Of a stretch of 64,000 bases of DNA, positions 6,921-62,273 are shown piece after piece (the stretch's first letter is position 1; every line of letters starts with the position of its first letter). The notes under the pieces were generated by a model, which saw nothing but the letters and a program-made list of their open reading frames with translations, searched no databases and was not told the origin of the DNA. A program made the translations under genes and the position numbers. The stretch lies in IMG/VR virus record IMGVR_UViG_3300025030_000011, positions 1-64,000 of that record; one strand, 5' to 3'. The stretch comes from a virus.

Positions 6921-9380
6921 ATGACTGAGCGAATATATTTAATGATTTTGTCAGGAGTTAACCCAAACACTCTTACAACAGGTTATCACTATTTTAGCAC
7001 TAAAGGGTTTACTTCAGCACCTACAGATACACCAGCAAGTAAATATTTTGTTCCAAGAATAACTAATCCCGGCATGTATCAGCAATCTATGTTCTCCCCC
7101 GGCCAAACCGGGGGAGATTCATCTAGTAATCAAGGATTTTGTGAATTAACAAATGTAGATGGAATTTTAGACAACCTTATTGATTGGGGTTTTGATGGCG
7201 GAGTTTATCAGATATTAGAAGGCCCGGAAGATGGGGACTTAACTGATTTCGTCACAGTTAACTACGGTACAATAAAACAAGTAGAATCTTCTTGGGATAC
7301 AATAACAATCCGATACAGGGATAATGGAGAATTTTTAGATAAACCTGTAATTTTGAATTATTATTTGGGGGATAATGTATTACCTGCTGGATTAGAAGGC
7401 GCGTCTGAATTAAAAGATAAACCTAAACCTAGATTATTTGGGTCAAGAAGAAATATAACACCTATTTGTGTAAATACATCTAAACTAATTTATCAGTATA
7501 ATGATGGAGCATCGTCAAGTGTTGGGGCTGTTCGTGATAACGGCGTGGCTTTAACAGTAGGTGTAAATCATGCTGACTCTACAGCTATGCTTGCTGCAAC
7601 AGTTGCAGCAGGATATTATGACACTTGCCTTACTGAAGGTTTCATCCGTCTGGGTAGTTCTCCTACAGGACTTATTACAATGGATGCTGTTAGCTCTACA
7701 ATTCCAATAGGTCAACAATATAAAGCTTTAGTTGAAGAAAAATTAGCTGTTGGAAGTGTAGTAGAACAATCAATTATAGAATTAGATCGACTTATACCGG
7801 CATCTATAATATGGGGATACTATACAAGTACAAAAATAGATACAACTAAAAATGTATTTGATGCATTGTCTAAAGCAGGTATTTGGTGGGGTTTTGATAA
7901 CTTAGGTAAATTTTGGGCGAAACAACTTATAATCCCAACTTCAACTAATTCTATAACTACATTAAATGTAGATAACAGCGTGTCTATAGAACGTACTGCA
8001 ACAAGTGATAGTGATAAAGGCATGCCTGTTTGGAAAGTTACCTGTAATTACAATCGTAATGAAACCGTACAAACAACTGTTGCAGGTAGTGTAAATGCAT
8101 CATTGTATAATAGCGAGTGGCAAACGGCTATCTATTCAGACGTAACAATTAAAACTTTGCATCCTCTCGCTGAAGAATTGATTGTTGACACCCCTTTCAA
8201 TACCTATGCAGACGCTTTGGCTGAAGCTACAAGACTGTTTAATTTAAAATCCGTAAGAAGGGATAGACTTAAAATTAATTTGCTATACGGGGCAAATGGG
8301 CCACTTGTTTACATTAAAGGAGGATATTGGGAAACTGAAGCTATAAGTGAATTACCTATAGATAGATATAATCATTGCAGTTCAGTGTATCAAAATTATG
8401 TATATGTAATTGGTGGCTTTATTTCAGGTGATAGTACAACTAGCGTTATCAGACTTGACTTAGATAATCCCACAGGGGCTTGGGATGATACAGGGGTCAC
8501 AGATTTACCGTCAAAAAGAATGAATGCAGCAAGCGTTGTATATAACAATTATTTGTACGTTATTGGAGGTACTGACGGTTCTGCTATGAGTGATGTTATC
8601 AGGCTTGATCTAAGTAATCCTACCGGGGCTTGGGATGATACAGGGGTTACTGATTTACCTGTTGCAAAACATTCTTTAGCGGCGGTTGTGCATGACAACT
8701 ATTTATATACAATTGGGGGAACGGGTTTTGCATATTATGACGATGTTATAAGACTTGACTTAGATAATCCTACCGGGGCTTGGAGTTCTATTGGAGATGT
8801 AACAAGCTTACCTGAAACTCGTTGGCTTTTATGCGCAAATATAAATCTTGACTATTTATATGTTGCAGGTGGGTTCGGGCCTGAAGGTGCTTTAACTTCA
8901 GCTATCAGACTTGATCTAAACAATCCTGCTGGGGCTTGGGAGAATTTGGAAGATATGCCGGGGATAGGTAGGATTGGGGCTACTTCTACAATATGTAATG
9001 ATTATTTATATGTTATTGGTGGATGGGATGGAGATGCTGCTTATACTAACAGCGTTATCAGGCTTGATCTAAGTAATCCCACAGGGGCTTGGGATGATAC
9101 AGGTGTTACTGACATGCCAGACGGACGTTACAGGCTTTCTTGTAATACATATAATAAAGCGATATATTCAATTAGTGGAGCAACAGCTACACCAAAAAAT
9201 AATACTTGGAGATTAAGGAGTAATGAAAACCCGGAAGATTATTCACAATTAAATAGTTTAGGTAGGATCATAAATGTCAAAATGCCTAGATATGAGTATA
9301 ATGCAGGCAAGCCTATGAGAATGATTGGGCAAGAAATAAATCATCAAACTAAAGAAATAACTTTAGACCTTTGGGGGTAA
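6921..9380 (+). CDS. Tail/baseplate protein with an inserted kelch beta-propeller
   Basis: 819 residues. Roughly residues 1-460 look like a tail-tip structural protein. Residues of about 465-745 form some five or six kelch-type blades: repeated (Y/L)YVIGG motifs, a VIRLDL strand and a conserved GAWDDTGVTDLP turn. After the propeller the structural fold seems to resume (LGRIINVKMPRYEYNAGKPM to LTLWG-like end), as in baseplate hub modules. The propeller therefore looks like an insertion in a loop of the structural domain. Kelch propellers bind protein or glycan ligands, so host receptor contact is a reasonable inference. The repeat units are also very similar as DNA. Confidence 0.7.
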   Translation: MTERIYLMILSGVNPNTLTTGYHYFSTKGFTSAPTDTPASKYFVPRITNPGMYQQSMFSPGQTGGDSSSNQGFCELTNVDGILDNLIDWGFDGGVYQILEGPEDGDLTDFVTVNYGTIKQVESSWDTITIRYRDNGEFLDKPVILNYYLGDNVLPAGLEGASELKDKPKPRLFGSRRNITPICVNTSKLIYQYNDGASSSVGAVRDNGVALTVGVNHADSTAMLAATVAAGYYDTCLTEGFIRLGSSPTGLITMDAVSSTIPIGQQYKALVEEKLAVGSVVEQSIIELDRLIPASIIWGYYTSTKIDTTKNVFDALSKAGIWWGFDNLGKFWAKQLIIPTSTNSITTLNVDNSVSIERTATSDSDKGMPVWKVTCNYNRNETVQTTVAGSVNASLYNSEWQTAIYSDVTIKTLHPLAEELIVDTPFNTYADALAEATRLFNLKSVRRDRLKINLLYGANGPLVYIKGGYWETEAISELPIDRYNHCSSVYQNYVYVIGGFISGDSTTSVIRLDLDNPTGAWDDTGVTDLPSKRMNAASVVYNNYLYVIGGTDGSAMSDVIRLDLSNPTGAWDDTGVTDLPVAKHSLAAVVHDNYLYTIGGTGFAYYDDVIRLDLDNPTGAWSSIGDVTSLPETRWLLCANINLDYLYVAGGFGPEGALTSAIRLDLNNPAGAWENLEDMPGIGRIGATSTICNDYLYVIGGWDGDAAYTNSVIRLDLSNPTGAWDDTGVTDMPDGRYRLSCNTYNKAIYSISGATATPKNNTWRLRSNENPEDYSQLNSLGRIINVKMPRYEYNAGKPMRMIGQEINHQTKEITLDLWG

Positions 9381-21561: not shown

Positions 21562-22119
21562 TTATCTCCTTTTCATTTTATCTTTAATTCTATCTTGTAC
21601 CGATTTACTCTTATCTACTTTCCATTGTTCAATTGCTTCTGGGCCTATATCACGTGGTTCTTGCGGTTCTCCGTTATACTCTTGCCCTCTTAGTCTCACT
21701 TCATTTTCCAAAGCCGATTTCCTAGCTTGGAATGCAAATATTACATTAGTCATAAGGTCTGAATAATACTCAGCTTCAATAGATGCCTTTTTAACCTCCT
21801 TATAATCAGAATGATCTCTATAATATGCTTCCACATTAGGTGCTGTAGGTTTAATACCTTTTCCCATTACTTCTGGGTTTTCATTTGCTTCTTTGATTAA
21901 TTGACTACGCATAGTTTTAACACGTTCATCTGCCAACTTTGCTCTTTTGTTTGCTGAAGCTGCTTCTTTAGCATACTTCATAAATGTTTGGGCATGTGTC
22001 GCAAATTCAAAATCAAGTCTTATCAAATCAATTTCAAGGTCATTTTCATAATCAAACCCTTCTCTCTTACATTCTTTTTCTTCACTTTCTATTTGTTTCC
22101 GTCCTGTTGATCTGGGCAT
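21562..22119 (-). CDS. UvsY-like recombination mediator candidate
   Basis: 185 residues, almost all helical. It resembles a phage family often annotated as a UvsY-like or recombination-mediator protein: a TMRSQLIKEAN segment, then PTAPNVEAYYRDHSDYKEVK (a TE-x2-I-x-A-type motif), then a helix with AFQARKSALENEVRL. It would load the UvsX/RecA recombinase onto SSB-coated DNA. The N-terminus MPRSTGRK belongs to the shared tag group. The assignment is by pattern only. Confidence 0.6.
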   Translation of the reverse strand: MPRSTGRKQIESEEKECKREGFDYENDLEIDLIRLDFEFATHAQTFMKYAKEAASANKRAKLADERVKTMRSQLIKEANENPEVMGKGIKPTAPNVEAYYRDHSDYKEVKKASIEAEYYSDLMTNVIFAFQARKSALENEVRLRGQEYNGEPQEPRDIGPEAIEQWKVDKSKSVQDRIKDKMKRR

Positions 22120-39334: not shown

Positions 39335-39408
39335 AATCCTCTCCTTTTTATTATTTAATGGTGTTAAAGGTGATTTTAATTTTAAATCTTTCATAGCTTT
39401 ATATCTCC

Positions 39409-39558
39409 TTACCAAGACCTAGACCTAGACCAAGACATAGACCAAGACATAGACATAGACCTAGACCCAGACATAGACATAGACCTAGACCTAGACATAG
39501 ACCCAGACATAGACATAGACATAGACACTTTATTTAATATATGTATTGGTATTAACAT
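39409..39558 (-). CDS. Ser-X dipeptide repeat protein, copy 1
   Basis: 49 residues. GGAGCATAAAGCT precedes the ATG; the leader MLIPIHILNKV is followed by 19 Ser-X units (X = Met, Arg, Gly, Trp). The stop TAA runs directly into GGAGATATAAAGCTATG, the start signal of the next gene. The hexamer unit is TCTNNN. Compare the copies at 40,610, 42,428 and 43,358. Translation is supported by the conserved leader and ribosome binding site rather than by openness alone. Confidence 0.55.
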   Translation of the reverse strand: MLIPIHILNKVSMSMSMSGSMSRSRSMSMSGSRSMSMSWSMSWSRSRSW

Positions 39559-39573
39559 AGCTTTATGCTCCAA

Positions 39574-39786
39574 TCACCTTTTGTGAAATTCTGGGCCGAT
39601 TTTATGTTCATTGATTGCTTGATAAAGTAGTTTAGCATGAACAATGTTTATTGGGCGTAAATTACAACCGTTGTTTATTGATCTTACACAAACACCAGAT
39701 ATTTCAGATAACCTTTCATTTGATAGTTTCTTATCCTTTTTCTTTGCTGCAAGGCAAGGTAGTATAACATATCTAGGTTTATTCAT
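39574..39786 (-). CDS. Small helix-turn-helix protein
   Basis: 70 residues. NERLSEISGVCVRSINNGCNL reads as an HTH (XRE/Cro-like), preceded by a basic KKKDKK segment. Likely a transcriptional regulator; its stop is 3 bp before the cassette 1 ribosome binding site. Confidence 0.55.
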   Translation of the reverse strand: MNKPRYVILPCLAAKKKDKKLSNERLSEISGVCVRSINNGCNLRPINIVHAKLLYQAINEHKIGPEFHKR

Positions 39787-39801
39787 TTATAACCTTTTCT
39801 T

Positions 39802-40401
39802 TCATGTTGTCCTCCTTGATTTCGTTTTAGGTATTTTACAACTTAAATCATAAGTTCCGTTTTTTCTATTCCCTGTACTCCCACAAGAATATTCCCAAGT
39901 TTCTCTATACACGTTTTCATCTTTAATAACAAAACTTTCACAATGAGGGCATTTATCAGAAAGCATGTGATAATTTTGGGCTTGCATTACTTCTTTTCTT
40001 CTGATCGGGTCTATCAATTTAATATATGTTGTACAAAACTTATCTGCGCATTCAACACAAAGCAATACATCTACCCAATAATTCTTTTTTTCGTCTATTC
40101 TTTTGTATTTACAGCTAATAGGAGGGTGTTTCATCCAACCTGCGTTTGGGCCTTCTGGTTCATGATGTTCTGTTTCTGTAGGTCTTTGCTTGCCCGTAGT
40201 TCTTCTACTCTTTTTGGGGGTATCTAGGGCTTTATCTATACCTATTATTGCTTCTTCTTTGTCCTGTACTTCAATTTCGTTTCCGTCAGGTTCAACAGTA
40301 AAATATTTACTGTTATCATACTTTCTGATTTTATAACCCCTGTAATCAATTTCATGATAGGCTGGGACAATTTGTTTTTTTATGCCTGTGGTTCTTGCCA
40401 T
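39802..40401 (-). CDS. Zinc-finger protein with three RTT(G) motifs
   Basis: 199 residues. N-terminal MARTTGIKK, an internal SRRTTGKQ near residue 72 and a C-terminal KSRRTT end repeat the phage's shared tag motif. Between them a CVECADKFC...CPHC zinc-type arrangement lies at about residues 115-155. RBS AAAGGAGG. Role unknown. As the only protein with the motif at N-terminus, middle and C-terminus it is a natural candidate for the system that uses the tag. Confidence 0.65.
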   Translation of the reverse strand: MARTTGIKKQIVPAYHEIDYRGYKIRKYDNSKYFTVEPDGNEIEVQDKEEAIIGIDKALDTPKKSRRTTGKQRPTETEHHEPEGPNAGWMKHPPISCKYKRIDEKKNYWVDVLLCVECADKFCTTYIKLIDPIRRKEVMQAQNYHMLSDKCPHCESFVIKDENVYRETWEYSCGSTGNRKNGTYDLSCKIPKTKSRRTT

Positions 40402-40559
40402 GTTTTTCCTCCTTTTAATATCGGTTGATAAAATGCTTCAGTTTTTATTTTTATCATATCTTGAAATTCTTTTGAATGCTGTACTTCAGCATCGTCAATT
40501 ATTATTTGATTTGTAGTTTTTCCATGTAATGCATATTTCAAAGCATCTATTTGATGGTC
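40380..40559 (-). pseudogene. Orphan reading frame downstream of cassette 2
   Basis: A 59-codon frame without an ATG in register (DHQIDALKYALHGK... to WQEPQA), overlapping the start of the RTTG zinc protein. The ATG at 40,561 is one base out of frame and hits a stop in five codons. The upstream in-frame piece is the 10-codon remnant shared with cassette 4, with its start changed to ACG. This looks like the 3' remnant of a gene whose beginning was replaced by the cassette. Confidence 0.4.
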
Positions 40560-40609
40560 ATTTTATTGTGCTCCTTTTATTTCCAAATCTATCGTAGCTT
40601 TATATCTCC

Positions 40610-40909
40610 TTATATAGACCCAGACCTAGACCTAGACCTAGACCTAGACATAGACATAGGCCTAGACCCAGACCCAGACCTAGACATAGACATAGACCCA
40701 AAGGTAAACCTAGACCTAAACCCAGACCTAGACCTAGACCTAGACATAAACATAGACCTAAAGCCAGACCTAGACCCAGACCTAGACCCAGACCTAGACA
40801 TAGACATAGACCTAGAGCCAGACCTAGACCTAGACCTAGACCTAGACCTAGACCCAGACCTAGACCCAGACCTAGACATATCATTTAATACATGTATTGG
40901 TGCTAGCAT
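40610..40909 (-). CDS. Ser-X dipeptide repeat protein, copy 2
   Basis: 99 residues: leader MLAPIHVLNDM, then about 44 units dominated by Ser-Arg, Ser-Gly and Ser-Met with occasional Phe and Pro. The ribosome binding site GGAG is embedded in the last codons of the SNF2 helicase gene. The stop TAA precedes GGAGATATAAAGCT and an ACG where the other copies have ATG. Longest of the four. Confidence 0.5.
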   Translation of the reverse strand: MLAPIHVLNDMSRSGSRSGSRSRSRSRSRSGSRSMSMSRSGSRSGSRSGFRSMFMSRSRSRSGFRSRFTFGSMSMSRSGSGSRPMSMSRSRSRSRSGSI

Positions 40910-40910
40910 T

Positions 40911-42413
40911 TTATACTCCAATCAAATCATTAAATATTGAAGTTTCATTTTCTTCTACTCCATCCAACGCTTGATCTATAATTTTTGATTTAGCTTCTAA
41001 CTCTTTTAAATTATCTTCATCACAAGTATTAATTCCCACAAAATAATAAGCAAAAATACAATCTGCTAATTGACCAATCCGATTAACTCTGTCTTCAGCT
41101 TGGAGATGTTTAGCAGGACTATGTGAAAGTATTTCAATTGTAGCTGTTGCGCTTGCTGCTGTTAACGTTAAACCCGTGCCTGCTGCTATTATATTTCCAG
41201 ACAATAACTTTATTTTGGGATTATTCTGAAATTCCTCTACAGCTTTATTTCTTTCATTTAAAGACATACCTCCATAAATTCTTACAGTATTATCTTTAAA
41301 TTCTTCATATACTAAATCAACTATTTTTCTATGATTTGCAAATACAACAAGCTTTAAACCACTTTCAAGATAATCTTCTATCCAATTCAATGCTGCTTCA
41401 AGTTTACCTAAAGCTGCTGTCTGGGATAGTTTTTCAGAACGTGATAGATGATCTAATGTCCTATCAGCTTTAATTGCTTTATACACATTCATGTTGTCAA
41501 TTTCAAGCGGTATTGCCGTTCTTATCAATCTAGGTAAATCTTTTAGTACATCACCTTTTAAACGTCTTATCATAATAGCAGATAATTTTTGGAAAAGTTC
41601 TGGTATATTTGTTGCCCCATTCTTAGTCATTCCAAAACCGTTTGCCTTTAAATCACAATACCTTTTTGCAAATTCCCATCTACTTGGGAATAAATTAGGT
41701 TCCACAATATTTATTGCGTTATAAGCATCAATAGGTCTATTCTCTATTAAGGTTCCTGTTACTGCAATTACTTTGGGGATATTTTTGGAAAGTTTTATTG
41801 TTGCTTTTGTTCTAGTTGCTTTAATACTCTTTATGGCTTGAACTTCATCAAGTATCAATATTTTTATTCCTGCTGCTTTTAATACAAGGTGCCAATCAAA
41901 TAAAATATCATAGTTTATTATTATGATACCTGTTTTGGGGATATTCTTTATTTCTTGAAATTTTAAATCACCTGAACCGGATAAATAAACCTCTTGTATA
42001 CTTTTCTTTATTTTGCCTGATACAACATAGACTCTGTTTTCTTCCCTACGTTCTAACCACATAAATGTTTCCTTAGCCCAGTTTAATTTTAATGTTGCAG
42101 GACAAACAACTAAAACTAATCTGTCATTAGGATGTAATTGTAAATAACCCAATGATTGGGCAGTTTTGCCCAGACCCATATCATCCCCAAGAATTGCTCT
42201 TCCTTTTTGTCTATCAATAAAATAAACACCGTCTAATTGATAGTCAAAAAGAGGTTTAGCAATTTTGAGGATATGAAAATCTTTAGGTCTATTTAAAGCT
42301 TTATATTTAATTATCTCTCCTGCTTTATTATAACTGTCTTTAGGCTTGCTGGTTTTAGTTATAGCGGGGTTTTTCTTGTTTAGTAATGCTTTGACTTGCT
42401 TTAAATCTATCAT
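40911..42413 (-). CDS. SNF2-family DNA helicase/translocase
   Basis: 500 residues. Motifs: Q-type FDYQLDGVYF, I GDDMGLGKT, Ia VVCPATLKLNW, II LDEVQAIK (DEVQ rather than DEAH), III TGTLIENRP, IV region ALNWIEDYL, V GTGLTLTAA and VI QAEDRVNRIGQ. This is the SMARCAL1-like branch common in phages; it may reanneal or remodel forks. Its start (MIDLKQV) lies 14 bp after Ser-X cassette 3 with GGAGGTATAAAG as ribosome binding site. Confidence 0.88.
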   Translation of the reverse strand: MIDLKQVKALLNKKNPAITKTSKPKDSYNKAGEIIKYKALNRPKDFHILKIAKPLFDYQLDGVYFIDRQKGRAILGDDMGLGKTAQSLGYLQLHPNDRLVLVVCPATLKLNWAKETFMWLERREENRVYVVSGKIKKSIQEVYLSGSGDLKFQEIKNIPKTGIIIINYDILFDWHLVLKAAGIKILILDEVQAIKSIKATRTKATIKLSKNIPKVIAVTGTLIENRPIDAYNAINIVEPNLFPSRWEFAKRYCDLKANGFGMTKNGATNIPELFQKLSAIMIRRLKGDVLKDLPRLIRTAIPLEIDNMNVYKAIKADRTLDHLSRSEKLSQTAALGKLEAALNWIEDYLESGLKLVVFANHRKIVDLVYEEFKDNTVRIYGGMSLNERNKAVEEFQNNPKIKLLSGNIIAAGTGLTLTAASATATIEILSHSPAKHLQAEDRVNRIGQLADCIFAYYFVGINTCDEDNLKELEAKSKIIDQALDGVEENETSIFNDLIGV

Positions 42414-42427
42414 AGCTTTATACCTCC

Positions 42428-42649
42428 TTACCTAGACATAGACCTAGACCTAGATATAGGCCTAGACCCAGACCCAGACCCAGACCTAGACCTAGACCTA
42501 GACCTAGACCTAGATATAAACCTAGACCCAGACCCAGACCTAGACATAGACATAGACATAGAGCCAGACCCAGACCTAGACCTAGAGCTAGACCTAGACC
42601 TAGACCTAGACCTAGACACATTATTTAATATATGTAATGGTATTAGCAT
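42428..42649 (-). CDS. Ser-X dipeptide repeat protein, copy 3
   Basis: 73 residues: leader MLIPLHILNNV, then about 31 units, mainly Ser-Arg and Ser-Gly, with one Arg-Pro-Ile-Ser break shared with copy 4. The start follows the upstream gene's stop directly with only a weak AAAGGA signal, and the TAA leads into the SNF2 gene's ribosome binding site. Coupling to both neighbours is likely. Confidence 0.5.
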   Translation of the reverse strand: MLIPLHILNNVSRSRSRSRSSSRSRSGSGSMSMSMSRSGSGSRFISRSRSRSRSRSGSGSGSRPISRSRSMSR

Positions 42650-42650
42650 T

Positions 42651-42971
42651 TTATTTTTGTTCCTTTGGTAAAGCATGTGTCCATGAATACACATCGACTA
42701 TACTATTTATACTAACACGTACAGGAACATTAACAGGCTCAACTTCGTCCAATACTCCATCATTTATAGCTTGTGTAAATCTCCCACTATCAGCAATCCA
42801 TGCTGCTTCCTCTAAAAATATAAATTTATCCGTCACTTTAAAAATACGACCTGTCAAATGAAATGTTATAGTGCGAATATAAACACATTCATCTACTATA
42901 AAATCTTCATTGTTGTTTTTCATCAAAGCTTTATAAACTTCCCCACGCACATTCACATTTGATTTTGTCAT
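42651..42971 (-). CDS. Conserved phage protein with AAWIADSGRF signature
   Basis: 106 residues. The arrangement TITFHLTGRI, then EEAAWIADSGRF, EVEPVNVPVRV and a final VYSWTHALP is a recognisable phage protein family of unknown function, all-beta, possibly Sm-like. It often accompanies phage DNA-metabolism genes. RBS AAGGAGAC. Confidence 0.75.
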   Translation of the reverse strand: MTKSNVNVRGEVYKALMKNNNEDFIVDECVYIRTITFHLTGRIFKVTDKFIFLEEAAWIADSGRFTQAINDGVLDEVEPVNVPVRVSINSIVDVYSWTHALPKEQK

Positions 42972-43035
42972 TGTTTCAGTCTCCTTTTGTTTTATGATTT
43001 GATTTTATGTTTATACTTTATTTTATTGTAAAAAG

Positions 43036-43309
43036 CTATTTAATTATTTCAAAACCGTAGTAAAATACCCCAGCACAAATTGTATTATTATTGAATTTTA
43101 TGTCGTATAATTCTGAATATGGGCCTAAATGCATATCTCCTATTATCCCCTAATGATATTTACTATATTCAGAATCTTCTATTTCCCAAAGATAGTATTC
43201 AATTAAAATACTATCCATAAAATTAGCTTGAATAATCCCTATATTCAAAGCCCCCCCCCCATGCTATGTTACATCTTTCTTGATAAATTTCTCCTGCCGT
43301 ATAGTCCAT
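43036..43309 (-). pseudogene. Small gene broken by a 10-G tract and an in-frame amber
   Basis: From the ATG at 43,309 the frame reads MDYTAGEIYQERCNIAWGG... into a run of ten G (plus-strand C at 43,251-43,260). With ten G it terminates soon after. With nine or twelve G the frame would continue through a 50-codon product (ending SEYSKYH). After that TAG the same frame stays open for another 38 codons to 43,036. It could be phase-variable, or simply decayed, or a homopolymer sequencing error. Confidence 0.5.
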
Positions 43310-43357
43310 TTTATTGTGCTCCTTTTATTTCCAAATCTATCATAGCTTTATACCTCC

Positions 43358-43615
43358 CTATATAGACCTAGACCTAGACCTAGATATAGGCCTAGACCCA
43401 GACCCAGACCCAGACCTAGACCTAGACCTAGACCTAGACCTAGATATAAACCTAGACCCAGACCCAGACCTAGACATAGACATAGACCCAAAGCTAAACC
43501 TAGACCTAAACCCAGACCTAGACCTAGACCTAGACATAGACCTAGACCCACACCTAGACCTAGACCAAGATCTAGACATAGACACATTATTTAATATATG
43601 TAATGGTATTAACAT
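43358..43615 (-). CDS. Ser-X dipeptide repeat protein, copy 4
   Basis: 85 residues: leader MLIPLHILNNV, then about 37 units with Arg, Gly, Met, Trp, Phe and Cys at X. GGAGCATAAAGCT precedes the ATG. The stop TAG merges into GGAGGTATAAAGCTATG, which opens a 10-codon ORF shared with copy 2's flank. The central part aligns with both copy 2 and copy 3. Confidence 0.55.
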   Translation of the reverse strand: MLIPLHILNNVSMSRSWSRSRCGSRSMSRSRSRSGFRSRFSFGSMSMSRSGSGSRFISRSRSRSRSRSGSGSGSRPISRSRSRSI

Positions 43616-43790: not shown

Positions 43791-44924
43791 TCATGTAAAG
43801 CTATGCATTTTTACTAATTCGCCCCAAGGGACAGTTCTTCTTGTGTTTTCAGTAGCTACCCAAAGAACTGGAAAATCAGGTTCATCCCCAAAACTGTCAC
43901 ATTCCAAATCCGTGAGATATACACCACAACATGGTAAATCTTCTTGCTTCATGCTCCATGCTATTGCTGGGGCAAAGTCAGTACCACCACCTCCTTTTGC
44001 ATTCAATTTAACCGGTCTATTTTCGCTTGTAAACTCTTCAACATTAGTCACCCTTGTATCACAGTAAATCACCCTTGCTGTTGTGTTGTACTGCGTCAAA
44101 ATGTCGTCAATTTCACTTGCAAACTGTTTTAAATCTTCTTGGTTAACACTCCCAGACGTATCAACATAAATATCAAGTGGTGGCATTTCATGATTATACA
44201 ATGAAGGAAGGATAAAACCAGTCCCCATATATCTTGTGTTAGGGCGTTTCCACGTATAGTCATTTCTTGCTACTTGTTCCACAAAACGGTGTAAAGCCTC
44301 TCTCCAATTTACTTTTGATTCATTCAAATCTGATATTAATCTTGCAAGACTAGCAGGCAATTTCCCGCAAGCTTTAGCTTGATTTGCTGCTTGTGTTGCT
44401 GCTATTTGCCATTCCTGCTGTTGCAGTTCCTTTTCAGATTGACTTGCTTCTTCTGTTGTTTCGTCATTTCCTGTATAGTCTAGAACCTCTCCAGGAAGCG
44501 GCTTATTATCTTGTTGCTGTTGTTTCTGATACAAAATGTTATATACTTCGTCTGTTGTTTTCCCCAGAAAATCTTTATTATACAAATACTCTCCCGGCAA
44601 AACAAAACCAACATCAAGCAAAATAGGATTAATCACATAATCAGCAGCTTGATTATAAATTTTTGCATCTCTGTTGCCTCTATTTACATGATGCCCAAAC
44701 ACACAGTGTAAAACCTCATGAGCATTCAATGCTTTTGTTTCGTCTAATGTGCATTTTTCGATGAAATCAGCATTGTAAATCAGCTTTATTCCATTCGTCG
44801 CAATTGTTTTGCATAGTTCATTATTTTCTTCGATTTGCAGTTTTAATGCAAGTGTTGCAAAAAATGATTCCTCTAAAATTAATGCTGAACGTGCTTTGAC
44901 AATTTTCTTTAATATTTCATTCAT
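43791..44924 (-). CDS. VWA-like protein with N-terminal metallopeptidase domain (DUF2201-like)
   Basis: 377 residues from the ATG at 44,924 (GGAGGGAT upstream). The N-terminal HEVLHCVFGHH is a zinc metallopeptidase-type HExxH motif. The C-terminal half has the VWA MIDAS-type pattern: IYVDTSGSV, then a T in YCDTRV and an YLTDLECD strand. This family pairs with MoxR AAA+ ATPases; a MoxR gene lies 1.6 kb upstream in the same operon. Chaperone-like remodelling of a target complex is the usual idea. Confidence 0.82.
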   Translation of the reverse strand: MNEILKKIVKARSALILEESFFATLALKLQIEENNELCKTIATNGIKLIYNADFIEKCTLDETKALNAHEVLHCVFGHHVNRGNRDAKIYNQAADYVINPILLDVGFVLPGEYLYNKDFLGKTTDEVYNILYQKQQQQDNKPLPGEVLDYTGNDETTEEASQSEKELQQQEWQIAATQAANQAKACGKLPASLARLISDLNESKVNWREALHRFVEQVARNDYTWKRPNTRYMGTGFILPSLYNHEMPPLDIYVDTSGSVNQEDLKQFASEIDDILTQYNTTARVIYCDTRVTNVEEFTSENRPVKLNAKGGGGTDFAPAIAWSMKQEDLPCCGVYLTDLECDSFGDEPDFPVLWVATENTRRTVPWGELVKMHSFT

Positions 44925-44925
44925 T

Positions 44926-45072
44926 TTATCCCTCCATTGAATTATAAAGATATGATTCTTTAAATGTTGGTTTTCTTGTAATTTCAATAAGTAAAAAATT
45001 AGCTTCAATCCATTCAGGATACCAATATTCTGACGCGCTTTTTGTATTGTAATTTTCTATTTTAATAATCAT
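44926..45072 (-). CDS. Small unknown protein
   Basis: 48 residues from an ATG with GGAGGTATAAAG upstream. Trp/Tyr/Glu-rich (YWYPEWIEANF), no motif. Its stop is 1 bp from the metallopeptidase/VWA start, so they are coupled. Confidence 0.55.
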   Translation of the reverse strand: MIIKIENYNTKSASEYWYPEWIEANFLLIEITRKPTFKESYLYNSMEG

Positions 45073-46585: not shown

Positions 46586-47566
46586 TTAAATCAATGTATC
46601 TTGATGTTTTGCACTCCAGGCAATAAATGCTTTAGTATTGCAGATTGTTTGATTTTGCTTGACCGAATCCCGTATCATCAAAACTTGGAATTCTGGAGGC
46701 ATTCTATCAGTGAATTTTAGTATACGCTCTATTGTGTTTTGACTTGCCTTGCGTGCAAGTCCCAAAGATAATGCATATATAACTGCCGGTTGTGTTGGCA
46801 TTTCAATAGAATCTGGATTCAACAGTATTGCATCGATGCTGGGAAGTTTTGTGTATATCTGCATGAAACCTATAAACTCCGCCGCATAACCTTCACCAAC
46901 AGCCCCTTTATAAGTTTCAAGTTGTAGATGTGCTGGGATATTCATACCCATTAAAGCTCCCAGACTTTCAACAGTTCTGGGACAAGGATTATTTACTAGA
47001 TCGGCTGTGGGGTTGCCGGAATACATCAAACCCGGCCGGAACTTATTGAATGCTACCAATTCGACAGGTAAATTATCAAGCGCCCATGTATCAATCCAGT
47101 CCTCCATATCAAAGGCGACATGTATAATACTGTCGAATCTTGACTTGATAGGTTCAAGCAATCCAGATACCCCGGCCCGGTCTTCACGCCGATTTGTCGC
47201 ACCTATTACAACTACATTTTTATTGTCCTTTACCCTATCTAGGAATGACATTTGAGCCGCTTGCACTGCCGGAGCACCTTGTCCAATATCATCAGCAAAA
47301 ACAATATGCAGTTTATCAGCATTAAAAATACGTTCTAACTCCCCAAAAGGTTTTATTTCCGGTTTACCGTCAATGATACATGGCAAACCTTTGAAATCTG
47401 TTGGATCACTGATAGAACCGTAAATCACGGTCAAATCAGCATTCAGTTCTTTTTGTACTTCCTTCACAATTGCTGTTTTGCCAATACCTGGGGGGCCAAC
47501 AAGCAATACACGACGACTAGCGTTTATACAGGCTGTTAAAATTGTTTTACAATCTGAAATTTTCAA
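46586..47566 (-). CDS. MoxR-like AAA+ ATPase
   Basis: 326 residues. Walker A GPPGIGKTA, Walker B HIVFADDIGQG, sensor 1 VIGATNR, and an arginine-finger region PIKSRFDS. MoxR ATPases act with VWA proteins as metal-cofactor insertases or complex-remodelling chaperones. The downstream order (acidic protein, helical partner, small proteins, VWA/metallopeptidase) makes a compact RavA-ViaA-like module. Confidence 0.85.
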   Translation of the reverse strand: MKISDCKTILTACINASRRVLLVGPPGIGKTAIVKEVQKELNADLTVIYGSISDPTDFKGLPCIIDGKPEIKPFGELERIFNADKLHIVFADDIGQGAPAVQAAQMSFLDRVKDNKNVVVIGATNRREDRAGVSGLLEPIKSRFDSIIHVAFDMEDWIDTWALDNLPVELVAFNKFRPGLMYSGNPTADLVNNPCPRTVESLGALMGMNIPAHLQLETYKGAVGEGYAAEFIGFMQIYTKLPSIDAILLNPDSIEMPTQPAVIYALSLGLARKASQNTIERILKFTDRMPPEFQVLMIRDSVKQNQTICNTKAFIAWSAKHQDTLI

Positions 47567-52839: not shown

Positions 52840-53685
52840 ATGGGGCGTACTACAGGAAATAAAATAAAGAAGAGAGAATTTCCAAAAATTATAAAAAAGA
52901 GTTTAGAGTTCCAAAAAACTATTGACCTGAATAAAGATAAACCTATGCGTGGGGCACATCCAATGGCCCAAAGAAGGATAGACTTGGGGTTGCCTACAAG
53001 GGTTGAAGAAAGAAAGAAGAAATTGGGGTTATCCCCAGAACCTATTTATGATGGGCTTAGATTTCCACACATAGGTTACACACTAAGCAAGGAGTACGGA
53101 TTCACTCAAGCACAATTGGCCCAAGTTTTTGATGTAAAGCTGAATACAGTAGAAGTTTGGATGATTAAACACAAAGAATTTGCAATGATGGTGAGAAAGG
53201 GGAGAGATGAATATGACGGTGCTAATGTAGAGAATGCATTATTGAAAAAATGTTTAGGGTATACCTTTGAAGAAAAATCAATAAAGAGAATAAAGATAAA
53301 AGGTAAAACAGCAGAAGGTTTAGAAGTATCTGTACCGGCCACAGAGATTGTTATGACAACTAAGCATATGTCTCCTGATACAAAAGCAATTATGTTTTGG
53401 TTGCAGAATAGAAATAGTGCTCGTTGGAAAAACATGACTTATATAAAAGCTGATATTGAACAGCATACAAGTCATGTAGAAGTGAATGCAGACATTACCA
53501 ATATGAAATCAGAAGACATAAGAGCATTACGTGACATAATCGTAGCACAACAGCAGAAAGCGATTCCAGAGGAATGTGAGAGGGTTACGAATGCGGATTT
53601 AGACACTATGCTAGATAAGGCAAGAGGGGTTAGAGCTATAGAGGATGCTATCATAGTACCACAAATTGATTATAAGGAGGTATAA
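52840..53685 (+). CDS. Terminase small subunit-like protein
   Basis: 281 residues; starts MGRTTGNKIKK (shared tag). FTQAQLAQVFDVKLNTVEVWMIKH is the DNA-binding helix-turn-helix; ALLKKCLGYTFEEKSIK and a TTKHMSPDTKAIMFWLQNR segment match phage small terminases of the phBC6A51-like type. It recognises the packaging site. It lies 3 kb before the large subunit, with the lysis genes between. Confidence 0.78.
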   Translation: MGRTTGNKIKKREFPKIIKKSLEFQKTIDLNKDKPMRGAHPMAQRRIDLGLPTRVEERKKKLGLSPEPIYDGLRFPHIGYTLSKEYGFTQAQLAQVFDVKLNTVEVWMIKHKEFAMMVRKGRDEYDGANVENALLKKCLGYTFEEKSIKRIKIKGKTAEGLEVSVPATEIVMTTKHMSPDTKAIMFWLQNRNSARWKNMTYIKADIEQHTSHVEVNADITNMKSEDIRALRDIIVAQQQKAIPEECERVTNADLDTMLDKARGVRAIEDAIIVPQIDYKEV

Positions 53686-56752: not shown

Positions 56753-58357
56753 ATGGTGAGGACAACAGGGATTAAATCTAATCGTATAATAACACAAGAC
56801 GACACAGCTAATTTTACGATAGACCCTGTGAAAATACAAAGGTTGATGAACACACCTTTAGAAGCTTTAGATAAAGCTTTGGCAGAAAGACATTTAGCAG
56901 AGTTTATCAAACAGCATTGGATATTTATTGACCCACATGATTATGTTCACGGTTGGCACTTAGACGCAATATGCGAACACATGGAAGCAGTTTTTGCAGG
57001 GGAAATACTAAGGTTAATGATTAACATTCCCCCGCGACATATGAAATCGTTGGGTATATCTGTTAGTTATCCTGCTTGGGTTTGGACAAAGAAACCTGAA
57101 ACACAATTTATTACATTCTCTTATGCATCTACTCTCACAATTCGTGACGGTGTTAAATGTAGACGTATTATAGATAGTCCTTTGTATCAATCACGTTGGG
57201 GTCATAAATATCATCTAACAGGAGATCAAAATACTAAGATAAGATTCGATAATGATAAAGGCGGTTATCGAATCAACACGTCTATAGATGGTGTTGGTAC
57301 AGGTGAAGGTGGGGACGTTATTATCATTGACGATGCTAATAACGTAGCTGAAGCAGAATCAGAGATTACAAGGGTAGGAACAAATATATGGTTCGATGAA
57401 ACATTGCAATCACGTTTCAATGACCCCAAAACAGGGGCTTTAGTTTCAATCCAACAAAGAACACATTATGATGATCTTTCAGGTCATATAATGGATAAAT
57501 ATGGAAAGGATTATGTAGGTCTTATCCTTCCTGCCGAATATGAAGTAGAATCAAAAAGAAAAATGGCGTTAAGAACATTCCACGGCTGGAGAGGTGATCC
57601 TAGAACAGAAGAAGGTGAGTTACTTTGGCCGGAACGATTTGGAAAAAAAGAAATAGATAAACTTAAAATAGCTTTGGGGCCGTATGCAGCAGCAGGGCAA
57701 CTCCAGCAAAGACCTTCACCGAGGGAAGGTGGGTTAATCCCTCTTACAAAGTTTCAAAGATATAGTGTAATGCCTGCGATAGAAACTTGGAAAAGACTAT
57801 CTCTTGTATTTGATACAGCGCAAAAGGAAAAAGAGTTAAACGATTATTCAGTATGTCAGGCTTGGGTTGAGACTTCACGGGGCTTATTTCTTCTATTCAT
57901 TTGGCGCAAAAAGTGTCGGTATCCCGAACTAAGGCGCAATGCAAAATCGCTTTGCGAAGAATGGAAGCCCCATGAAGTTTTAATTGAAGATAAATCTTCG
58001 GGTTCTAGTTTAATACAAGATTTGCAGGAATATAAAAAGTTTCCGATTATAGGTATTGATCCTAAGAATATTGATAAGACAATGAGGATGGAAACAGAAG
58101 CAACCGCTATTGAGGCTGGTTTAGTCTGGATTCCTGAAACAGCAGGGGTAGAGATCAACTTAGAGCATAGCGTAAAGCAATGTCTTTGGTTGACAGATTT
58201 TGAAGAAGAATGTGCTCAGTTTCCAATGGGTCAACATGACGATCAAATAGACCCTATGAGTATGTATTTGAAACGAGTTAGAGAAAGACGCCAGAAACAA
58301 CCTCCTGTAGTTGCTCCATTAATAGATGATTTTTCTGGAGAATCCCATTGGAGGTAA
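56753..58357 (+). CDS. Terminase large subunit
   Basis: 534 residues; begins MVRTTGIKSN (shared tag). ATPase: MINIPPRHMKS (Walker A-like), VIIIDDA (Walker B), then QQRTHYDD coupling. Nuclease: LVFDTAQKE, LIEDKSSG and HDDQIDPMSMYL, an RNase H-like fold. Drives packaging through the portal. Confidence 0.93.
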   Translation: MVRTTGIKSNRIITQDDTANFTIDPVKIQRLMNTPLEALDKALAERHLAEFIKQHWIFIDPHDYVHGWHLDAICEHMEAVFAGEILRLMINIPPRHMKSLGISVSYPAWVWTKKPETQFITFSYASTLTIRDGVKCRRIIDSPLYQSRWGHKYHLTGDQNTKIRFDNDKGGYRINTSIDGVGTGEGGDVIIIDDANNVAEAESEITRVGTNIWFDETLQSRFNDPKTGALVSIQQRTHYDDLSGHIMDKYGKDYVGLILPAEYEVESKRKMALRTFHGWRGDPRTEEGELLWPERFGKKEIDKLKIALGPYAAAGQLQQRPSPREGGLIPLTKFQRYSVMPAIETWKRLSLVFDTAQKEKELNDYSVCQAWVETSRGLFLLFIWRKKCRYPELRRNAKSLCEEWKPHEVLIEDKSSGSSLIQDLQEYKKFPIIGIDPKNIDKTMRMETEATAIEAGLVWIPETAGVEINLEHSVKQCLWLTDFEEECAQFPMGQHDDQIDPMSMYLKRVRERRQKQPPVVAPLIDDFSGESHWR

Positions 58358-58571: not shown

Positions 58572-59828
58572 ATGGCCCGTACAACAGGTAAAAAACCGTC
58601 TGCGAATCTTACGGAAATAGGCGGTACAGGTTTACGCGCATTCGGTGGGGTAATAGGTGAAGAATTTTTAAGACAATTACAAGGGGCAAAGGGCTTAAAG
58701 ATTTACAGAGAAATGAGTGATAATGACCCTATTATTGGTTCAATTCTTTTTATCATAGATAAGTTGTTAAGGAATGTAACTTGGAAAGTAAACCCCACCG
58801 ATGATAGCCCGGCAGCAAAAGAAGAAGCTGATTTTGTATCAAGTTGCATGATCGATATGGAACATTCATGGGAAGAATTTATAAGTGAATTACTTTCAAT
58901 GCTTATATACGGTTTTTCATTGCATGAAATAGTTTATAAGATTCGTGAAGACGGAAGAGTGGGGATAGCTAAACTTCCTATACGCGGTCAAGAAACTATT
59001 TGGAGATGGAATACAGATGGATGTATGAGGGATTTTGTTTCTATAGATCAACTCTTACCTACGGGCGGGAGTTTCACAATACCTGCTGATAAATTGTTGT
59101 TGTTTAGAACACAAAGCTATAAAAATAATTTCCAAGGTCGTAGTATTTTACGAAATGCTTTTAGACCCTGGTACTTTAAAAAGAAACTTGAAGAGGTTGA
59201 AGCAATAGGGGCGGAAAGAGATTTAAACGGTTTCCCTGTTGCTTATGTTCCTCCAAATTTACTTTCTGCTAATGCTACTGATGAAGAAAAAGCAACACTA
59301 GCTGCAATTAAACGTATGGTTACAAATGTACGTATAGATGAACAAATGGGAATGGTATATCCTTTAGCATATGACGAAAACAACAATCAGTTGTATAAGT
59401 TTGAACTTATGTCAACATCCGGGACAAGACAGCATGATACAAATTCTATAATTACACGTTACAGTAAAACAATGGCAATGACAGTAGCAGCAGACTTTAT
59501 ATTTTTAGGTTTAGATAAGGTTGGGAGTTTTGCACTTTCGTCGGATAAGACTTCTACATTTTCTATGGCAATGGGGGCATGGCTAAAAGCAATAGCTGCT
59601 GTATTGAATAGAAAGCTTGTCCCTAAACTAATGACGTTAAACGGTGTGCCTAAAGAATTATATCCCCAATTTGTCCCTGGGGATATTGAGAAAGAAGACA
59701 TAGCTACATTTGTAGATGCAATTTACAAACTTGTTGGAGTTGGAGCATTGCAACCTGATGATGATATAGATGCAAAAGCAAGAGAGTTGCTTAATCTTCC
59801 AATTAAGATTTCTAACGGTACAATGTAA
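58572..59828 (+). CDS. Portal protein (DUF935-like)
   Basis: 418 residues; begins MARTTGKKPS (shared tag). Patterns SDNDPIIGSILFIIDKLL, LIYGFSLHEIVY and the FQGRSILRNAFRPWYFKK block are typical of DUF935/Mu gp29-type portals. Dodecameric DNA channel. Overlaps the next gene by 1 bp. Confidence 0.88.
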   Translation: MARTTGKKPSANLTEIGGTGLRAFGGVIGEEFLRQLQGAKGLKIYREMSDNDPIIGSILFIIDKLLRNVTWKVNPTDDSPAAKEEADFVSSCMIDMEHSWEEFISELLSMLIYGFSLHEIVYKIREDGRVGIAKLPIRGQETIWRWNTDGCMRDFVSIDQLLPTGGSFTIPADKLLLFRTQSYKNNFQGRSILRNAFRPWYFKKKLEEVEAIGAERDLNGFPVAYVPPNLLSANATDEEKATLAAIKRMVTNVRIDEQMGMVYPLAYDENNNQLYKFELMSTSGTRQHDTNSIITRYSKTMAMTVAADFIFLGLDKVGSFALSSDKTSTFSMAMGAWLKAIAAVLNRKLVPKLMTLNGVPKELYPQFVPGDIEKEDIATFVDAIYKLVGVGALQPDDDIDAKARELLNLPIKISNGTM

Positions 59829-60835: not shown

Positions 60836-61243
60836 ATGACAGATAAACAGGCAATAATTTTTAAAGGAGAATTTACTGGAGAAGTAGATAAGGTAAATAA
60901 GATTGCTTACGGTTGGGCGTATGTAGCAAAAAAGGGTGATACTCAAATTGTAGATCATTCAGGAGATATTTGGGATATTAAAGAAATTGAAAAAACAGCA
61001 CATGATTTTATAGCATGTCGCACTGGTGGAGAAAGTCATGTGTATAAAGGTGGTGCTGTACTTGTAGAATCCCTTGTATTTTCTGAAGAAGTACAAAAAG
61101 CATTAGGTATTGATCTTGGGAAAATTGGTTGGTTTGTTGGATTTGAAATATTAGACGATGATTTGCTAGAAAAAGTACAGAAAGGAGAACTCTCCATGTT
61201 TTCCATAGGCGGGACTGGAGAAAAGGAGGAAATAAATGGCTAG
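60836..61243 (+). CDS. XkdF-like prohead protease
   Basis: 135 residues. GWAYVAKKGDTQIVDHSGDI, then ESLVFSEEVQKALGI, KIGWFVGFEI and MFSIGGTGE match the XkdF-like putative serine protease domain. In many phages this domain is fused to a longer C-terminal part, which here is the next ORF in another frame, overlapping by 8 bp. Confidence 0.82.
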   Translation: MTDKQAIIFKGEFTGEVDKVNKIAYGWAYVAKKGDTQIVDHSGDIWDIKEIEKTAHDFIACRTGGESHVYKGGAVLVESLVFSEEVQKALGIDLGKIGWFVGFEILDDDLLEKVQKGELSMFSIGGTGEKEEING

Positions 61244-62273
61244 AACTACAGGAGCAAAACATAAACTTAGTAATGTGAAATTGGATGAAATTTCATTCGT
61301 GGGTAAAGGTGATAATCCTGAAGCACATATTATCCTTCTAAAGAATCACCCAAGCATAATATTGAGCCTTGGGAAGAACTATAAGGGTAAAGACAAAGCT
61401 GATGTGCTAAAAAAACATTTTGAAGAATCCAAGAACATACAGAAAGGCGATGGGGATGCCAAACTGTTTCAAGATATAGTTGATGATAAAGTAATCAGAG
61501 ATAAGCTTTGGAATTTAGTTTGGATTTTAGAAGATTCAATTTCATCTATTTCGTATGATGATGAATGTACAAACAAACAGGAAATGATTGAACAGAGTGT
61601 TTCACAATTCAAAGACGCAGTATCACAACTAACAGGAGGTAACACCGTGACGAAAGAAGAATTGGAAAAAGCATTGGAAGTAGAAAAAGCAAAGTCTGCT
61701 GATCTTGAAAAGCAACTTGCTGATGTAAAGAAAGAAAAAGAAGATTTGGAAAAAGCTAAACCTGCACCTGGAGAAGTATGTAAAGCGTGTGGACAGAAAA
61801 TGCCGGAAGTAAAGAAAGAAGAAATTGATAAATCGGCACTTCCTGAAGCAGTAGTAAAACAGCTTGAAGAAATTGAAAAAGAAGCAAAACTCAACAAAGA
61901 AAAGATTGAAAAGTTGGAAGATGAAGCAATTACCAAAGAATGTATTGAAAAAGGTAAAACTGTTTCTGCGATTGGTAAAGCTGAAGTTGTTGGGGATATT
62001 TTTAAACAGGCAAGCAAAGTAAGTAAAGAATTTGCTGAAAGTATCTATAACATTTTCAAAACTGCGGATGCCCGTATCAAAGAAAGTGGATTGTTTAAAG
62101 AAGTTGGTGGTAGTGATGGCGGAGAAGAATTGACAGCTATTGATAGACTGAATAAAGCTGCGGAAGAACATCGTAAAGCTAACCCTACGTTGACAAAAGA
62201 ACAGGCTTGGGATTTTGTATATAAGAACAATACGGAACTGCGTAAAGCGTATCAGGAAGAATCTCGCAAATAA
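61236..62273 (+). CDS. Scaffold-like capsid assembly protein (split from the protease)
   Basis: 345 residues; begins MARTTGAKHKL (shared tag). The following NVKLDEISFVGKGDNPEAHI is the segment that continues the protease domain in XkdF-type fusions (LDEVSLV-x-x-ANP-like). Then comes a long Lys/Glu coiled coil (residues about 130-250) with a CKACGQ knuckle. Expected to act as scaffold during prohead assembly. Confidence 0.7.
   Translation: MARTTGAKHKLSNVKLDEISFVGKGDNPEAHIILLKNHPSIILSLGKNYKGKDKADVLKKHFEESKNIQKGDGDAKLFQDIVDDKVIRDKLWNLVWILEDSISSISYDDECTNKQEMIEQSVSQFKDAVSQLTGGNTVTKEELEKALEVEKAKSADLEKQLADVKKEKEDLEKAKPAPGEVCKACGQKMPEVKKEEIDKSALPEAVVKQLEEIEKEAKLNKEKIEKLEDEAITKECIEKGKTVSAIGKAEVVGDIFKQASKVSKEFAESIYNIFKTADARIKESGLFKEVGGSDGGEELTAIDRLNKAAEEHRKANPTLTKEQAWDFVYKNNTELRKAYQEESRK

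Follow-up and report, generated by a model that had tools for sequence, protein, structure and literature searches.

What, if anything, is made from four arrays of degenerate hexamers that share one strand of a phage genome, and why would a phage keep them? The window analyzed here is a stretch of 64,000 nucleotides, positions 1 to 64,000 of the 68,679-base IMG/VR virus record IMGVR_UViG_3300025030_000011. A first-pass annotation, made from the letters of the window alone, described four TCTNNN arrays on the minus strand and read them as genes for Ser-X dipeptide repeat proteins, in which serine alternates with a variable residue X. Our analysis upholds the reading of these arrays as coding; what the annotation missed, although it is present in the window, is a second small gene with a predicted Sm fold, here termed gene A, which together with the Ser-X gene constitutes a two-gene module. 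That the two form a near-obligate pair is strongly supported. The four Ser-X open reading frames (ORFs) of the window each consist of a leader and repeats only:

39409-39558, minus strand: Ser-X ORF 4, leader MLIPIHILNKV and 19 units, array at 39412-39525.
40610-40909, minus strand: Ser-X ORF 3, leader MLAPIHVLNDM and 44 units, array at 40613-40876; starts 1 nt past the helicase stop.
42428-42649, minus strand: Ser-X ORF 2, leader MLIPLHILNNV and 31 units, array at 42431-42616; starts 1 nt past the gene A stop (TAAAATG).
43358-43615, minus strand: Ser-X ORF 1, leader MLIPLHILNNV and 37 units, array at 43361-43582.

The arrays lie where they had been described, with 19, 44, 31 and 37 units, and a pattern of five TCTN3 units matches the window 62 times, against 0.00 in 100 dinucleotide shuffles. 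An 11-residue, near-constant leader is present in all four ORFs, the Ser frame is unbroken in each, and X is mainly Arg, Gly or Met with few Trp, there being no Trp in the two middle arrays. A ribosome binding site of the GGAGnATAAAG type, said to be present in most copies, precedes the start codon in three cassettes; the cassette at 42.4 kb has none, and its start lies one base past the stop of the upstream gene. The claim that each stop merges into the ribosome binding site of the next gene also holds, in that all four lead into a near-identical TAAGGAGnTATAAAGCTATG, which at 42413 supplies the SNF2 helicase with a real ribosome binding site and start. The 3′ boundaries of the cassettes are as follows:

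39384-39411, minus strand: stop, then GGAGATATAAAGCTATGAAAGATTT (ribosome binding site and start).
40585-40612, minus strand: degenerate copy, with ACG as start codon.
42403-42430, minus strand: ribosome binding site and start of the SNF2 helicase gene.
43333-43360, minus strand: followed by a micro-ORF, MIDLEIKGAQ and a stop, similar to the helicase N-terminus MIDLKQ.

Since this downstream motif resembles the upstream one, each window cassette is bracketed by a direct repeat. In location, ORF 2 is the one that matches other phages; the other three cassettes look like copies bracketed by repeated GGAGnATAAAGCTATG, and two of them carry a degenerate version of the helicase reading-frame start. 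A near-identical copy of ORF 1 is present in locus L124.

The cassette is not specific to one phage, a point that the first-pass annotation missed. BLAST of the arrays against phage records gave no match. An IMG/VR scan for five TCTNKG units found mixed TCT[ACGT]GG arrays in more than 50 fetched loci among the matches listed, i.e., similar arrays occur across IMG/VR and make up a widespread family. In 129 of the 158 arrays with enough flank, the Ser frame is open from an in-frame ATG within 45 nt, compared with 20 and 8 for the other sense frames and 14, 8 and 21 of 159 for the antisense frames, and a stop falls within 21 nt of the array end in 146 of the 158. These arrays were found via the Ser-X frame, and their freedom from internal stops is thus partly by construction; the unbiased check of frame openness comes from arrays detected on nucleotides alone, in which the Ser frame likewise meets no stop before the final unit and is nearly always preceded by a short in-frame leader with an ATG (e.g., MIKKSIYKRNIW, MLPLNRK, MVTKRTKYR). 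The annotation had pointed to related phages with a broken leader or Ser frame and an intact array as the observation that would count against its reading, and the nucleotide-detected arrays do not present this pattern. The Leu-Gly frame and the antisense Arg-Pro frame, in which the variable base is synonymous, were rejected, as they have no starts. The Ser frame is the coding frame of these arrays across IMG/VR.

A small gene of approximately 85-115 residues recurs upstream of the arrays, which begin approximately 35 nt downstream of it. This is gene A, which occurs in two forms, type 1 ending in IESFGxxK and type 2 ending in WxHxLPxxQK, and whose two profiles are related (hhalign 96%, E 1e-9). 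The window contains one type 2 member, which was modeled with AlphaFold and compared using Foldseek:

42651-42971, minus strand: gene A (type 2), 106 amino acids, A3 profile E 6.7e-42, single copy in the 68.7-kb record.

When gene A was the only query, IMG/VR yielded 426 type 2 and 150 type 1 relatives, of which the top 80 per type were fetched; the type 1 profile had been narrowed, its first version being too diverse for scanning. Among distinct evaluable loci from this search, a Ser-X array is present within 1.5 kb of gene A at 52 of 52 type 1 and 66 of 72 type 2 loci, with most of these arrays no more than 100 nt downstream. The 600 nt that follow gene A contain 1.85 arrays per kb, versus 0.061 on the rest of the same strand. 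Conversely, of 53 loci identified from the array only, 34 have gene A nearby and five more are cut by the contig end. In genome assemblies, nine of ten gene A loci have a Ser-X array; the assemblies with the module are assigned to Falkowbacteria, FCB, Bacteroidetes, Bathyarchaeota, Maribacter, Dehalococcoidales, Isosphaeraceae and others, and may include misbinned phage contigs. Among deposited records, the module is found in 2 of 50,697 from phages and in none of 72,556 from plasmids; MW202825 is one source of a type 1 Ser-X protein. For neither type of gene A did Pfam, PHROGs, NCBIfam, PADLOC or PDB sequences provide a usable match (a match of type 1 to the NCBIfam family MM0924_fam is sub-threshold, E 6e-4), and the one Ser-X protein tested has no Pfam match; both families are without a name in Pfam, PHROGs, NCBIfam and PADLOC. 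The statement that no such phage system had been described agrees with our search of the open-access literature by peptide strings and topic, which found none.

Comparison of codons across these phages demonstrates what is conserved. Ser-X proteins have a median of approximately 26 units, with X being Arg, Gly or Trp, almost always encoded by NGG. Where gene A is of type 2, the linked arrays, counted with the X residue left unconstrained, have the Ser codons TCG (758), TCT (240), AGC (235), AGT (116) and TCA (60) and the X codons TGG (432), GGG (390), AGG (366) and CGG (118), all others being rare. Across gene-linked arrays, five of the six Ser codons are used, and phages differ in their choice; a single array keeps to one Ser codon (median 95% of units) and commonly to one Arg codon (AGG only in 101 arrays, CGG only in 45, mixed in 18). 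Mapped on the gene A trees, Ser codon changes number at least 31 for type 2 and at least 14 for type 1, and crossings between the TCN and AGY boxes at least 10 and at least 3, i.e., at least 13 in total. As AGCNGG and TCGNGG have only NGG in common, selection acts on the alternation of Ser with Arg, Gly or Trp, and the conserved entity is the protein (Ser-[R/G/W])n rather than a DNA or RNA motif. The use of NGG has a simple explanation, as no other codon set lets Trp, Arg and Gly interchange through a single change of the first base. A DNA motif TCTNGG was rejected, the Ser codon varying between phages, as was random mutation of the N base, since AGG or CGG is used and seldom both. A diversity-generating retroelement was also rejected, there being no RVT_1 reverse transcriptase in the 68.7-kb record.

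Within this constant grammar, the arrays turn over rapidly. Loci L191 and L194 encode identical gene A proteins and differ solely by a clean deletion of 20 units, and L052 and L071 have flanks that are 99% identical and arrays that are equally long but scrambled. The order of X is near random, with a slight avoidance of equal neighbors, and unit number stays at approximately 26; all sequences are metagenomic, and array lengths may be affected by assembly, since units may be collapsed or shuffled when short reads are assembled. Whole cassettes, which have a leader apiece and a short, constant spacer, are found in tandem in L005 (5575-8946, a contig with over a dozen arrays), L180 (3051-3837) and L116 (1992-6195), and tandem copies are also present in L040.

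The AlphaFold models of gene A, built from alignments of the loci sequences only, have a mean confidence (pLDDT) of 89.5 for the window protein (type 2) and 90.9 for type 1. Searched against the PDB with Foldseek, both models return Sm/Lsm structures for nearly all of the top 50 matches at probability 1.0, with best E values of 2.6e-3 (window type 2) and 5.2e-4 (type 1); for the better matches, the template modeling score by target is 0.63-0.82, and for the best the root-mean-square deviation is 1.6-3 Å. Like Sm/Lsm proteins (PF01423, including archaeal SmAP), a family whose Sm members form RNA rings in the spliceosome, the model consists of an N-terminal helix followed by a barrel of five to six strands. 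It differs from them in its conserved core, W-I-A-D-[ST]-G-R-F ... E-V-E-P or V-Y-E-T-G, in mostly lacking the Sm2 Arg-Gly, and in having no detectable sequence similarity to them. We consider gene A Sm-like by predicted fold, rather than a proven member of the Sm family. An N-terminal extension, KTIEISDETYEKIKDQL, seen in L166, L139 and many type 2 gene A proteins, resembles ribbon-helix-helix antitoxins and may be an autoregulatory domain; the N-termini of three gene A members weakly match DUF7557 (best E 1.5e-3), and one weakly matches VapB (E 0.02).

The two proteins also differ in physical character, gene A having a net charge of about -3 and Ser-X proteins one of about +6 to +9. At approximately 60 residues, a Ser-X protein has a median of seven Trp (28% at X), with Arg making up 26-35% of X. 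The leader differs with the type of gene A, being basic (+3.5) with type 1 and hydrophobic (+0.4) with type 2 (p 3e-22, a value that ignores shared ancestry, such that co-inheritance alone could account for the difference). Named neighbors of the module are RecT, Erf, NinG, RusA, YqaJ, SSB, DNA methylases and helicase loader, i.e., it lies in an early recombination and replication block. The window has an SNF2 helicase, a Toprim primase-like gene and others, with the helicase located between two cassettes:

40911-42413, minus strand: SNF2-family helicase gene (PF00176, E 6e-29).

Also near the window cassettes are a DUF2201 VWA/metallopeptidase-like protein (43791-45008, minus strand) and a MoxR-like AAA ATPase (46586-47566, minus strand), and in L122 the gene immediately upstream of the array is VWA-like.

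Taken with the predicted fold, the linkage and the early setting, these properties lead us to infer a function for the module. Our tentative reading, in which our confidence falls short of even, is that an acidic Sm/Lsm-fold protein and a basic, disordered Ser-X protein act together in gathering RNA or single-stranded DNA. The two would be made together through translational coupling, and the Ser-X leader, basic with type 1 and hydrophobic with type 2, would dock on a ring of gene A protein. The repeat chain would then be a counterpart, supplied in trans, of the tails rich in RG or RS that eukaryotic Sm and splicing proteins carry, with Arg and Trp as stickers that hold nucleic acid and one another and Ser and Gly as spacers. 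Early in infection, the pair would assemble phage RNA or single-stranded DNA into a condensate or ribonucleoprotein. Arrays change rapidly in length and order by duplication and deletion of units, and extra cassettes may be copied to other gene starts, as the window suggests. More speculative, and in our view possible rather than probable, is the specific proposal that a phage Sm-fold ring joins a fast-evolving Ser-[Arg/Gly/Trp] chain, encoded by a gene of its own, in an RNA-protein condensate within infected cells, a prokaryotic viral parallel to the eukaryotic Sm/RGG/RS ribonucleoprotein bodies.

The likeness to RS-type low-complexity proteins that the annotation had drawn is supported, with Ser at alternate positions but Arg at only 26-35% of X: SR proteins and the RG-rich tails of SmB/D1/D3 likewise place Ser/Arg or Arg/Gly low complexity beside Sm or RNA-binding domains. 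They differ in that Ser-X proteins are half Ser and about one-seventh Trp, have no RRM in the same protein and are of phage origin, so the likeness is convergence in grammar, not homology. Hfq, an Sm-type core with a disordered C-terminal tail, provides a working idea in which the phage tail would be a separate protein; this tail would act in trans and is dipeptide-repetitive and Trp-rich.

Several observations weigh against a nucleic acid-gathering Sm-like pair. Seven type 2 gene A loci have no adjacent Ser-X array, and the window has one gene A and four Ser-X genes. Gene A has no LSM match at the Pfam family cut-off or at E 0.05; no homology to Sm proteins was found by sequence, hhalign against 25 archaeal Sm proteins giving probabilities of 0.7 and 2.3%, similar to those of reversed controls; and an Sm2 Arg-Gly-like motif is found in just 17 of 99 type 2 proteins. 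The absent alignment to archaeal Sm sequences and the rarity of this motif are why we call gene A Sm-like in predicted fold only. In addition, Sm-fold proteins have roles that do not involve RNA, and the acidity of gene A does not suggest direct RNA binding.

The main rival is a toxin-antitoxin or self-immunity pair, in which an Arg/Trp-rich Ser-X protein would be a membrane- or nucleic acid-active toxin, and gene A would neutralize it and, via the ribbon-helix-helix-like N-terminus of some members, autoregulate. As in type II toxin-antitoxin operons, a small acidic gene stands upstream of a small basic one, often overlapping or coupled, R/W-rich peptides are classic antimicrobials, and the DUF7557 and VapB matches of a few gene A proteins fit this organization. 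We nevertheless judge it unlikely: copy numbers are unequal (one gene A to four Ser-X genes in the window, ten or more cassettes in L005), the second protein is made of repeats only, its alternating Ser-X chain is no known toxin fold and gave no toxin or antitoxin match in the one Ser-X protein tested, and the module sits almost solely in phages, in an early DNA-metabolism setting, with no plasmid copy found. A decoy or sensor trap against host defense, with gene A holding or presenting a fast-varying Ser-X protein that binds or saturates a defense protein, would account for rapid turnover, multi-copy cassettes and an accessory-gene position, and the Isosphaeraceae locus has an anti-restriction family protein (phrog_7245) at a distance of 3 kb; a decoy tracking its host would not be expected to keep its amino-acid grammar nearly constant over hundreds of phages with diverse probable hosts, and we regard this as rather improbable. 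Protamine-like compaction of phage or host DNA by Ser-X, with gene A as chaperone, suits a Ser/Arg-rich, basic protein without a fold and its acidic partner, but is improbable, since protamines are far more basic than a chain with a charge of just +6 to +9 and such a Trp content, and the module lies outside structural and packaging gene blocks.

Very unlikely as the sole explanation is a functionless product, whether of a selfish or neutral spreading repeat, to which the copied, repeat-bracketed cassettes of the window and the tandem copies in L005, L040, L116 and L180 might point, or of leader peptides that act as attenuators of the gene that follows (the annotation had listed both a spreading repeat and coupled leader peptides): gene A linkage is near-obligate over hundreds of phages, the amino-acid grammar persists through codon switches, and the downstream genes are diverse. 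An RNA element, a further alternative of the annotation, is hardly credible as the general function, since the strong folding of TCT arrays (z -5.6 for the window cassette, -4.2 for L049) is missing from the TCG, AGC and AGT arrays that other phages have at the same locus (z +0.25 to +0.8), making the hairpin a by-product, and since codon boxes switch while Ser is kept, Rfam gives no match and in-frame ATGs strongly favor the Ser frame.

Two further features of the window were observed. An M-x-R-[TS]-T-G-x-K N-terminus, which looks like a shared N-terminal protein tag, is carried by six unrelated proteins, including the large terminase and portal, with different codons each time, whereas just three such starts occur in 2.28 Mb of other loci:

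21562-22119, minus strand: tagged protein.
39802-40401, minus strand: tagged protein, with internal and C-terminal tag copies (SRRTTGKQ, KSRRTT).
52840-53685, plus strand: tagged protein.
56753-58357, plus strand: tagged protein.
58572-59828, plus strand: tagged protein.
61236-62273, plus strand: tagged protein.

A 150-bp repeat (2.3 copies, 8445-8783) lies within an 819-amino-acid protein at 6921-9380, a probable tail or fiber protein, where it gives Kelch-like repeats.

The Ser-X gene and gene A are thus a previously undescribed, near-obligate pair in hundreds of uncultured phages that is rare in deposited records. The Ser-X record is an unusually clean natural one of what a low-complexity sequence must keep, namely its Ser/Arg/Gly/Trp grammar, which outlasts switches of Ser codon box even as units are reordered and array length changes. 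If the pair does condense nucleic acid, virus-built ribonucleoprotein bodies in bacteria would be directly testable with two small genes.

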